Below are positions 8,902 through 62,242 of a stretch of 64,000 bases of DNA, in pieces. The stretch covers positions 62,001-126,000 of the forward strand of contig NZ_FOKE01000006.1 in the NCBI RefSeq assembly GCF_900112065.1, in the 5' to 3' direction. The notes under the pieces were generated by a model. That model saw only the letters and a program-made list of their open reading frames with translations. It did no database searches and was not told where the DNA came from. The DNA is from Cohnella sp. OV330 (GTDB lineage: Bacteria; Bacillota; Bacilli; Paenibacillales; Paenibacillaceae). How positions within the stretch are numbered: the first letter of the stretch is position 1; every line of letters starts with the position of its first letter. Both the position numbers and the translations under genes were made by a program.

Positions 8902-10866
8902 TTATTTCTCAGTTAATTGCTCCATTTGCTCGATCAATCCTTCGAACACGCTGAGCGCCTGCTCGATCGGGGCCGGCGTCGACATGTCCACGCCGGCTTT
9001 TTTGAGGATGTTGATCGAGTAGTCGTTGCCGCCGCTCTTCAGGAAGCCGAGATAACGGTCGACCGCGGGCTGGCCCTCGCTCAGAATCTGCTTGGCGAAG
9101 CTGGTCGCCGCCGAGAAGCCCGTCGCATACTTGTATACGTAGAAGCTCGTATAGAAGTGGGGGATGCGCGCCCATTCCATCTCGATGTCCTTGTCCACGA
9201 CCATATCGGTGCCGTAGTACTTGACGTTCAGGTCGTAGTAGATCGCCGACAGCTCTTCGGGCGTCAGGGACTCGCCGCTCTCGGCCTTGGCGTGAACGAT
9301 CTTCTCGAACTCGGCGAACATCGTCTGGCGGAACACCGTCGTGCGGAACTGATCCGCATAGTACGTGAGCAGGTACATTTTTTCCTTCGGGTCCTTCGAT
9401 TTGTCCAGCAGGTAATCCATAAGCAGCGCTTCGTTCAGCGTAGAGGCGACTTCCGCGAGGAAGATCGTATACTGCGCGTCGCGATATTCGTTGCTCTCGT
9501 CGGAGTAGTACGAATGCAGCGCGTGTCCCATCTCGTGCGCGAGCGTGAACATGCTGTTCAGATTGTCCTTGTGGTTGAGCAGCACGTACGGATGCGTGCC
9601 GTAGGCGCCCCAGCTGTACGCGCCGCTGCGTTTGCCCTCGTTTTCGTAGACGTCGATCCAGCCTTTGTCGAAGCCTTCCTGCAGCACCTTGCGATAGTCG
9701 TCGCCGAGCGGCTTCAGGCTGTCGTACACGGTTTTCTTGGCGTCCGCGTAGCCGATATCCATATCGAACTCGTCGACTAGCGGCGCGAACAGATCGTACA
9801 TATGAAGCTCGTCGACCTTGAGCAGCTTTTTGCGCAGCGCCATGTAGCGGTGCATGAGGGGCAGATGCTCGTGAATCGTCGAGATGAGGTTGTCGTAGAC
9901 GCTCACCGGGATGTTGTCGCCGAAGAGAGACATCTCGAGGGCGGACGGATAATGGCGGGCATGCGCGTAAAACAGGTTTTTGGTCACGTTCGCGTTCAGC
10001 GTCGCGGCGAGCGTGTTGCGCCATTTGCCGTACGTGTCGTACACCGCCTTGAAGGCCGCCTCGCGCACGCCGCGATCGCGGCTTTCGAGGAACTGGATGT
10101 ACCGGCCGTGCGTCAGTTCGACTTCCTCGCCTTTTTCGTTTTTCACCTTCGGAAACTTCATGTCCGCATTGTTCAGCATGCCGAAAATCGTGGTCGGCGC
10201 CTGGGACAGGTTGCCGACCTGGGCGAGCAGCGACTCCTCGCTCTTGGATAGCGTATGAGGCTTGCGCCGCAGCATCTCCTCGAGCGTGCGCCGGTATGTA
10301 GGCTTGAGCGAAGGATCCGCGACGATGCCCTCGAGCGTCTCCTCGGAAAGGCTCAAAATTTCCGGCGTAATATAGGAGGTCGCTTCGCCGGCCTCGACGC
10401 TCAGCTTTTTGGCTTTCTCGGAAAGCGCTTGATACTTCGAGTCGGCCATGTCCTCATGGCTCCGCATGTTCGCGTAGACGTAGAGGCGTTCCGTGAGAAG
10501 CGACAGCTCGTCGTCCTTGGCGAAGCAGGCGGAGATCGCGGCAGCGTCCTTCAATTTGCCTTGGAAGGAAGCGATCTCGCCGATCTGCGCGCGCACTTGC
10601 GCGTATTCGCGGTCCCAGGCTGCCTGGTCCGGGTAAATGTCCTCCAGGTGCCAGCGATGTTCGGCGGGCACTTCGCCGCGTTTGAGCACTTCGTTCATCT
10701 TGGTTAGCCTCCTCGGTACGTTGGATTCGTCGCGGGCGTACGCCTGCGCGATCGTCGTCTTGCTGCCGCCTTGCGCGGCGGCTTCTTCGGGCTGCGCCTG
10801 CGCGCATGCCGCGGACAGCATCGCAGCCGAGAGCAGCGCGGCCAGCGGCTTCGCGGATATTCTCAT
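8902..10866 (-). CDS. pepF: Oligoendopeptidase F (M3 metallopeptidase) with optional signal peptide
   Basis: Zinc oligopeptidase of family M3B that cleaves short peptides. The active-site 'FTLAHEMGHALHSYYS' carries the HExxH zinc motif, and a downstream Glu lies in 'AEVASTLNEALL'. The core is about 598 residues, the usual PepF length. The outer start (10866, GGAGG 8 bases upstream) adds 56 residues: basic 'MRISAK', a hydrophobic stretch 'PLAALLSAAMLSA', a Cys at residue 20 in 'SAAC' resembling a lipobox, then a Gln/Glu/Ala-rich linker. An inner in-frame ATG at 10698 also has AGGAGG nine bases upstream and gives the classical cytosolic N-terminus 'MNEVLKRGEVPAEHRW'. Both forms may be made. PepF is normally cytosolic, so an exported form is unusual. 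Confidence 0.9.
   Translation of the reverse strand: MRISAKPLAALLSAAMLSAACAQAQPEEAAAQGGSKTTIAQAYARDESNVPRRLTKMNEVLKRGEVPAEHRWHLEDIYPDQAAWDREYAQVRAQIGEIASFQGKLKDAAAISACFAKDDELSLLTERLYVYANMRSHEDMADSKYQALSEKAKKLSVEAGEATSYITPEILSLSEETLEGIVADPSLKPTYRRTLEEMLRRKPHTLSKSEESLLAQVGNLSQAPTTIFGMLNNADMKFPKVKNEKGEEVELTHGRYIQFLESRDRGVREAAFKAVYDTYGKWRNTLAATLNANVTKNLFYAHARHYPSALEMSLFGDNIPVSVYDNLISTIHEHLPLMHRYMALRKKLLKVDELHMYDLFAPLVDEFDMDIGYADAKKTVYDSLKPLGDDYRKVLQEGFDKGWIDVYENEGKRSGAYSWGAYGTHPYVLLNHKDNLNSMFTLAHEMGHALHSYYSDESNEYRDAQYTIFLAEVASTLNEALLMDYLLDKSKDPKEKMYLLTYYADQFRTTVFRQTMFAEFEKIVHAKAESGESLTPEELSAIYYDLNVKYYGTDMVVDKDIEMEWARIPHFYTSFYVYKYATGFSAATSFAKQILSEGQPAVDRYLGFLKSGGNDYSINILKKAGVDMSTPAPIEQALSVFEGLIEQMEQLTEK
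10708..10713 (-). promoter_or_regulatory. Internal Shine-Dalgarno site for a short, cytosolic PepF
   Basis: On the minus strand AGGAGG ends nine bases before an in-frame ATG (10698). It would start a 598-residue protein without the signal peptide. It matters because it decides whether the enzyme is exported, cytosolic or both. Confidence 0.7.
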
Positions 10867-10943
10867 CGGACGGACCTCCGTTTAGCAACGAATGGCAATC
10901 CGAGATAGTATATCCTGTCCCCGCGCGCTTCATTAGGCTGGCT

Positions 10944-61265: not shown

Positions 61266-62242
61266 CGTTGATCGCCGGCACGACGGCCAGTCTGTTGGTG
61301 CGGCGGGAGGTTCCGCCTTACGGCTGGTTTCTGGCCGAAGACGAGGCGGACGATACGCCCGAACTGCTGCTCCCTTACGGCGAAGCGGCGGGCAACCGGC
61401 CTTCGGTCGGCGATTCGGCGGACGTCTTCATTTTCCATGACGACAAAGGCCGACTGACGGCGACGACTCGACGGCCTTTGCTGCAGCTTGGGCAAATGGG
61501 ACGGCTCGAGATGGCCGACTTCCATCCGCGGTTCGGTTGCTTCCTGGAGCTGGGCATCGGACGTCAACTTCTGCTGCCGATCAAGGAACTGCCGGACAAC
61601 CGCGACCGCTGGCCGCAGCCGGGCGACGAGCTTCACGTGATCATGAAGCACGACAAGGAAGGCCGCATGCTGGCCCGGCTCGCCAAGATCGAGGATTACG
61701 AGCGCGTCGTGTTCCGCGCGCCGTCTTCCTGGCATCACGAGCAGCGGGAATGTTGGGTGACCGATATCTACAAGGACGGCGTGTTCATGCTGGCGCATGG
61801 CGGCGTGCTTGGTTACGGAGCGCTTGGCTACCTGCCGAACGCGTCCATGATCCATCCGCTTCGGCTCGGGGAGAAGACGACCGCACGCGTGACGCAGGTG
61901 AGGGACGACGGCAGAGTGACGTTGTCCATGCGGCCGGCCAAGGAAGTCGGACGCATGGAGGACTCGGACCGTATTCTGGCCTTTTTGCAGGCAAGGCCGG
62001 GCGGCGCGATGCCTTATTCCGATTCGACGCCCGCGGACGTTATCCAGAAGCGCTTCGGGCTCAGCAAGTCCGCCTTCAAGCGCGCGCTCGGCAAGCTGAT
62101 GAAGGACAGGCTCGTCGTGCAGGACGGCAATTGGACCCGGCTTGCGGCTTCCGAGGGGGGCGCGCAGCCTGCGGGAGCTTCGTCCGACGCGGGTACCGAG
62201 ACGGACGACGGAGCCGGCGGCAATTCGGCCGGTCGCGACTGA
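61262..62242 (+). CDS. S1-domain RNA-binding protein (CvfB/YitL-like)
   Basis: A 326-residue cytosolic protein. It carries three or more OB-fold S1-like domains: about residues 1-60, 70-130 ('FGCFLELGIGRQLLLPIKELPDN'-type strand) and 150-225 ('GVFMLAHGGVLGYGALGYLPNAS' region, with 'RVTLSMRPAKEVGRM'), followed by a winged-helix (235-300, 'VIQKRFGLSKSAFKRALGKLMKDRLV' region), as in CvfB of Staphylococcus. The tail of about 30 residues is disordered. CvfB influences virulence gene and RNA regulation in that genus. Here it lies between rsfS and the methyltransferase, where the B. subtilis cluster has no such gene. Confidence 0.88.
   Translation: MTLIAGTTASLLVRREVPPYGWFLAEDEADDTPELLLPYGEAAGNRPSVGDSADVFIFHDDKGRLTATTRRPLLQLGQMGRLEMADFHPRFGCFLELGIGRQLLLPIKELPDNRDRWPQPGDELHVIMKHDKEGRMLARLAKIEDYERVVFRAPSSWHHEQRECWVTDIYKDGVFMLAHGGVLGYGALGYLPNASMIHPLRLGEKTTARVTQVRDDGRVTLSMRPAKEVGRMEDSDRILAFLQARPGGAMPYSDSTPADVIQKRFGLSKSAFKRALGKLMKDRLVVQDGNWTRLAASEGGAQPAGASSDAGTETDDGAGGNSAGRD

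Follow-up and report, generated by a model that had tools for sequence, protein, structure and literature searches.

Can a single peptidase gene supply two cell compartments from two in-frame starts, and if so, what is the exported product for? This question is raised by pepF, the gene of an oligoendopeptidase F, in a 64,000-nucleotide (nt) stretch of the genome of Cohnella sp. OV330 (labelled G000 here, an assembly of 29 contigs; the stretch is positions 62,001 to 126,000 of contig NZ_FOKE01000006.1). We call this stretch the window and count positions from its first letter. The initial annotation had placed pepF at 8902-10866 and had proposed that the gene has two good starts, one for an exported and one for a cytosolic enzyme. 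Position and frame are right: the gene lies on the minus strand (ATG at 10866-10864, TAA ending at 8902) and encodes 654 amino acids (aa), and the idea of two kept starts is strongly supported by conservation among orthologues. We propose that pepF in Paenibacillales probably has two selected starts, and that the exported form would serve sporulation. Comparison of orthologues reveals both start sites, an in-frame AGG AGG constraint, a promoter motif, and a loss of the outer form alongside the sporulation protein SpoIIR.

Two start sites and their conservation

The protein belongs to the PepF family (M3B). It matches TIGR00181 with 679.8 bits (cut-off 490.55) over profile positions 1-591 of 591, as well as PF01432 (Peptidase_M3) and PF08439 (Peptidase_M3_N) in Pfam, and the HEXXH zinc site is found as HEMGH at residue 444 of the 654-aa form. 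The two in-frame ATG codons described initially, each with its own Shine-Dalgarno (SD) sequence, are borne out: GGAGGT precedes the outer ATG, and AGGAGG precedes the inner one (codon 57, 10698-10696) with a 9-nt spacer. Computed duplex energies with the anti-SD reach -10.7 at the outer start and -11.6 at the inner one, against a best value of -6.9 among 19 further downstream in-frame ATG codons; a third in-frame ATG, codon 16, falls within the signal segment. pepF was found in all 37 Cohnella genomes searched. A second PepF above the TIGR00181 cut-off occurs in only four of these, and more distant M3 relatives exist below it, so that in the remaining 33 genomes a canonical cytosolic PepF would have to come from this gene.

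For comparison, we read the N-terminal regions of the Cohnella loci, 80 named loci, a family sample, genomes of other families of the order, and 13 class-level loci. The order sample comprises 40 genomes outside family f1, taken from the 149 genomes of the order search, and the class sample consists of the 13 loci outside the order that are the closest matches of 200 class genomes; one partial gene (G049) was excluded at the N-terminus. Removal of identical stretches left 261 distinct loci, 232 of which have an in-frame outer start and a hydrophobic segment. The script found no outer start in the other 29, namely the 13 outgroup loci, 13 loci of genus g8, L323, L152 and L161; in the last two, outer starts missed by the filter (TTG and ATG, respectively) are visible by eye. 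All counts treat related species as separate, although these are not independent, and carry no tree-based correction.

Of the 232 loci, 225 have AGGAGG ahead of the inner start, always in frame 0, where it is read as the codons AGG AGG (225/225), and the spacer to the start codon measures 6 nt (177 loci), 9 nt (20) or 12 nt (28), with no other lengths. The seven loci lacking the hexamer (L065, L071, L286, L287, L302, L303 and L321) each show a shorter SD-like run by eye. When the sample is reduced to representatives with less than 75% ungapped DNA identity, AGGAGG is still present in 92 of 97. By comparison, none of 2082 other in-frame ATG codons in 103 full-length orthologues is preceded by AGGAGG, and 21 are preceded by a five-base SD. 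The inner start codon, picked by the script among ATG, GTG and TTG, is ATG in 229 loci and GTG in three (L231, L232 and L319), and these GTG codons after AGGAGG indicate that it is the start that appears to be kept, rather than a Met residue.

Codon use was counted in 94 distinct loci of 117 (L004-L120; no anchor was obtained in L117 and L120, and the others left out duplicated loci already counted). AGG makes up 1.4% of Arg codons in Cohnella (937 codons) and 1.3% in Paenibacillus (1146 codons), and of the other Arg-Arg pairs, 113 in all, none is encoded by AGG AGG. Outside the inner site, the 167,055 nt of coding sequence contain AGGAGG 20 times, in no case in frame 0, and the conserved Arg of a KR pair shortly after the inner start is AGG in 0 of 213 cases. 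These codon counts rule against the suggestion that the inner site was kept by chance, and a dibasic processing site as the reason for the Arg-Arg pair would leave the codon choice unexplained. The inner SD appears to be under selection across Paenibacillales, and this is visible from codon choice.

Three of the 94 loci lack AGGAGG. One of them, which had seemed an exception to the rule, turned out to be the second copy of a tandem pepF pair in Paenibacillus hemerocallicola (L100:2968-6761). The copies are 79% identical; the first has both starts and the second begins at the inner site, here GGGAGGG, without a signal segment. The pair looks like a division of the two PepF forms between two genes.

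Since the 232 loci were defined partly by having an outer start in frame, the unbiased test of its frame uses the order loci outside the lineages lacking SpoIIR. An outer start with SD and hydrophobic segment is found in frame 0 in 214 of these 234 loci, against 1 and 0 when the same filter is applied to the other two frames. Within the extension of the 232 loci, the +1 frame contains stops in 217 and the +2 frame in 150. The extension varies in length from 26 to 82 codons, while the spacer between the SD and the inner ATG shifts by whole codons only; this, together with the inner SD held in frame as AGG AGG, suggests that both starts are under selection. The outer start codon is GTG or TTG in 60 of the 232 loci, although start-codon counts carry some error, since starts were chosen by SD strength and hydrophobicity. 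The possibility, raised in the initial annotation, that most relatives lack either the signal peptide or the inner AGGAGG is not realized.

The extension was judged by hydrophobicity and sequence patterns. A loose A-x-A-like site is present in 187 of the 232 loci, which points to a simple Sec-type signal segment. The lipobox-like Cys proposed at the outset is weak: S-A-A-C in the window fails the pattern [LVI][ASTVIG][GAS]C, which only 10 of the 232 loci pass. We consequently reject lipoprotein anchoring, and a surface-attached lipoprotein form is unsupported. Nor does the exported form look ancestral to PepF, as had also been suggested, since the extension, looked for in the 13 class-level outgroup loci (the closest matches of 200 genomes), is absent and the filter finds an outer start in 0/13.

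A forespore-type promoter motif and SpoIIR

Upstream of the outer start lies a conserved element, GGNCATACTA, with an ATA-like element 18 nt before its CATACTA. Between -90 and -20, 157 of the 232 loci carry CATACTA, against a shuffled mean of 1.45. GGNCATAMTR is found at -100 to -15 in 132, against three occurrences in 478,973 nt downstream on the same strand, and the less strict GGNHANAMTR in 164, among them 35 of 37 Cohnella loci. Two-box patterns are similarly enriched in the upstream regions relative to the same downstream sequence: WTR-N14..16-GGNHANAMTR in 148 of 232 versus 7, ATR-N14..16-GGNCATAMTR in 105 versus 0, and ATR-N17..19-CAWAMTA in 152 versus 11. The aligned promoter logo was anchored on ATACTA, whose six columns are thus fixed by construction. 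Assuming 7 nt from the -10 to the transcript start, the predicted transcription start lies at a median distance of 27 nt before the outer start codon.

The consensus sequences of Bacillus subtilis are GTATA / GGNAANAMTR for sigma-F and GNATA / CAWAMTA for sigma-G (PMC3416734), and with respect to these the pepF motif joins the GG of sigma-F to the -10 of sigma-G. Marks of both factors have been described in the spoVT promoter of Clostridioides difficile, which might be a direct target of both (PMC3789822). A sigma-E or sigma-K class was considered and rejected, since by eye CATACTA is closer to CAWAMTA than to KCATANANTN or GCATANNNTA (consensus sequences as given in PMC3416734). In Cohnella, the same -10 motif is present upstream of spoIIR: among 30 spoIIR loci, read from 36 genomes with a SpoIIR match, GGNCATAMTR is found by script in 29, and the thirtieth, L354, shows GGACATACTG by eye. 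These data suggest that a sigma-F/sigma-G-type promoter, like that of spoIIR, lies upstream of the outer start in most loci and would drive expression in the forespore.

SpoIIR (PF09551) is missing in 14 of the 148 family genomes, 13 of which make up genus g8 (13/13 genomes, including G043, G073 and G083), the only genus of the family sample without it; the remaining one is G068. Judged on SpoIIR alone, genus g8 looks asporogenous. Its 13 pepF loci have neither an outer start nor a signal segment nor the AGG AGG frame, and AGGAGG is retained before the inner ATG with spacers of 8, 9 or 11 nt, so that the frame constraint looks released where the outer form has been lost. A genome of another family, G179 (L323), likewise lacks SpoIIR, the outer start and the promoter motif; altogether, the filter finds an outer start in 0/14 of these loci. 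SpoIIR is present in the other 19 genomes of a 33-genome set, G176 included. We also observed a SpoIIR match with an internal stop in G012.

Two proposed products, one probably sporulation-linked: mechanism and alternatives

Taken together, these comparisons are best explained by the following scheme, in which we infer translation from both sites, export, forespore expression and substrates. A sigma-F/sigma-G-type promoter would drive a pepF transcript in the forespore that starts just upstream of the outer start. Initiation at the outer site would yield a PepF that carries a Sec-type signal segment and is exported from the cytosol, and initiation at the inner AGGAGG-ATG would yield an ordinary cytosolic PepF. 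Made in the forespore, the signal-bearing PepF would pass through the inner forespore membrane and reach the gap that separates forespore and mother cell; the signal peptide of SpoIVB likewise leads the forespore-made protein to the space between the two membranes (PMC12251134). General turnover of peptides would be the task of the cytosolic form, perhaps along with the removal of peptides from the spore core. In growing cells, the transcript might come from read-through from the small upstream gene or from another promoter.

Several observations weigh against this scheme, beginning with the promoter. Among the loci sampled from other families, only 19 of 35 carry GGNHANAMTR. The window itself passes only the loosest two-box pattern and fails both strict ones, and its -10, GGATATACTA, which differs from CATACTA by one base, also resembles a sigma-A -10. 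At the reference genes, a strict sigma-F two-box pattern is found at only 4 of the 30 spoIIR loci, and among six loci of small acid-soluble proteins only L325 and L326 pass a sigma-G pattern (L327 shows GGTCATACTA by eye, and three show nothing clear). When the window genome was searched for the two boxes at one set spacing, 3 matches were obtained, compared with 5 in the reversed control. This search is uninformative, although one of its 3 matches lies ahead of a gene from the Fin family of anti-sigma-F factors. The association with SpoIIR is also imperfect. One g8 locus, L237, has GGNHANAMTR despite the lack of SpoIIR; G068 has no SpoIIR match yet keeps the extension, in an assembly 75% complete; and G176 has SpoIIR although its locus, L321, carries a short extension that lacks AGGAGG. 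The joint loss rests on two lineages, and with two independent losses at best it is suggestive and short of statistical proof.

Predicted RNA folding does not single out the inner site either, since its unpaired probability is no higher than that of coding controls (0.49 versus 0.48, 72 control genes). For the outer site, more pairing is predicted than for these controls (0.39 or 0.33 versus 0.48). A short transcript beginning at the putative promoter leaves this site slightly more open than a longer transcript does (0.39 versus 0.33; higher in 111 of 165 loci). Around the inner start, local folding is weaker than in the gene body (z about +1), whereas z is near -2 roughly 60 nt upstream and +0.2 at the outer start (97 loci). 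We therefore discarded the idea that structure hides one of the starts: the effect of transcript length is small, and the controls are about as open as the inner site.

Finally, in Paenibacillus polymyxa SC2-M1, a strain unable to form endospores, pepF expression was measured and the gene was reported to be activated by MsmR1; its deletion in the same asporogenous strain lowered the expression of spore and biofilm genes (PMC9722767). If that pepF is the orthologue considered here, its expression is not restricted to forespores.

This last point also speaks for the likeliest of the alternatives, in which both starts are real and the exported form is a general secreted peptidase involved in nutrition or pheromone clearance, the forespore-like promoter being one of several and sporulation incidental. 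We consider it unlikely. It would accommodate the 60 of 232 loci without ATACTA or the looser promoter core (one or other pattern) and the 68 without GGNHANAMTR. PepF/M3 proteins have moreover been reported in exoprotein fractions of Paenibacillus larvae (PMC6527061), which fits export but may reflect cell lysis. Against it stand the promoter motif at the outer start, the likeness of this motif to that of spoIIR, and the joint loss with SpoIIR.

A second alternative is that the outer start alone is used, the AGG AGG pair, SD-like and made of rare tandem codons, being a programmed pause that aids co-translational export and the inner Met an ordinary residue. The great rarity of AGG AGG in these genes and its location after the signal segment would fit a pause. 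Nevertheless, we regard this as very unlikely: an ATG is kept 6, 9 or 12 nt away however long the extension, the few replacements at this codon are GTG, the 13 g8 loci retain AGGAGG before the inner ATG without any outer form, and the second P. hemerocallicola copy begins at the inner site. The same spacing, and the lineages that keep the SD without the outer form, disfavour pausing or frameshifting at AGG AGG alone. Least probable of all is that the inner start alone is used in practice and the outer frame is a relic or an annotation artefact, which the GTG or TTG outer starts and the more paired outer ribosome site could suggest, but which is hard to reconcile with the near-exclusive use of frame 0, the stops in the other two extension frames and the whole-codon changes of the SD-to-ATG spacer.

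Gene context, known systems and significance

The features discussed are collected in the table below. The Pfam search gave no match for the 60-aa membrane protein encoded upstream of pepF; frames resembling this gene seem, by eye, to end just upstream of pepF in many orthologues. The window genome also carries a second PepF paralogue (L002, G000:C22:457939-459711), 31% identical to that of the window. In two further genomes (L039 and L040, on G009:C2 and G023:C9), pepF is in pieces, which may represent sequencing errors or decay.

Features of the pepF locus in the window (positions from its first letter)
Feature	Position	Strand	Basis or remark
pepF, long (exported) form, outer ATG	8902..10866	-	654 aa; TIGR00181, Pfam, HEMGH site
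pepF, short (cytosolic) form, inner ATG = codon 57	8902..10698	-	orthologue comparison
N-terminal extension: signal-peptide-like segment and variable linker, 56 codons	10699..10866	-	orthologue comparison
Inner Shine-Dalgarno AGGAGG, in frame as Arg-Arg (AGG AGG)	10708..10713	-	sequence and conservation
Outer Shine-Dalgarno GGAGGT	10874..10879	-	sequence
Forespore-type -10 element GGATATACTA	10906..10915	-	common orthologue form GGNCATACTA
Putative -35 core ATG (fits ATR)	10931..10933	-	18 nt upstream of TATACTA
Small membrane-protein gene upstream of pepF, 60 aa	10944..11126	-	read from sequence; possible read-through source

With PepF elsewhere the protein shares its whole catalytic part and the HEXXH site, and its relatives of solved structure, 2qr4 and 3ce2, match from residues 84 and 59, respectively, past the extension. 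PepF of B. subtilis is described as an anticipated cytoplasmic endopeptidase (PMC11218540); that of Paenibacillales differs by an export segment and a second start kept across an order. In Salmonella, PagC and OmpX likewise have alternative in-frame starts, with or without a predicted Sec signal peptide in the product, but they are outer-membrane proteins, neither peptidases nor linked to sporulation, and their conservation was scored within Enterobacteria (PMC11005335).

Among sporulation proteins, SpoIVB is a signalling protease and SpoIIR a signal protein, unlike PepF. Neither is known to have a conserved cytosolic twin form, although no search for one was made. SafA is a structural protein of the coat made in the mother cell; it is unrelated to PepF and is not known to form a signal-peptide/cytosol pair. 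Its gene in B. subtilis is nonetheless, like pepF, a sporulation gene with an internal start, from which a short form with different targeting, C30, is made (PMC6490927). In the literature searched, whose coverage leaves out most subscription papers, we found no report of dual starts or a forespore link for PepF. PepF and sporulation are reportedly the subject of a 2002 work by Kanamaru.

Beyond what had been noticed in the window, the comparison adds the forespore-type promoter and the link to sporulation. It also reveals selection on an internal SD across an order by codon choice alone, which implies that in-frame dual starts can be sought in sequence data at large; assigning PepF a single start in Paenibacillales would miss one of its two products. 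The two-start design is kept across an order of mostly spore-forming bacteria and was lost in two lineages without SpoIIR. PepF is an enzymatically active candidate for forespore biology. The chances appear about even that it is an order-wide forespore peptidase, a single enzyme present on either side of the inner forespore membrane, and it may then be an unrecognised proteolytic player in the spore development or germination of Paenibacillales.
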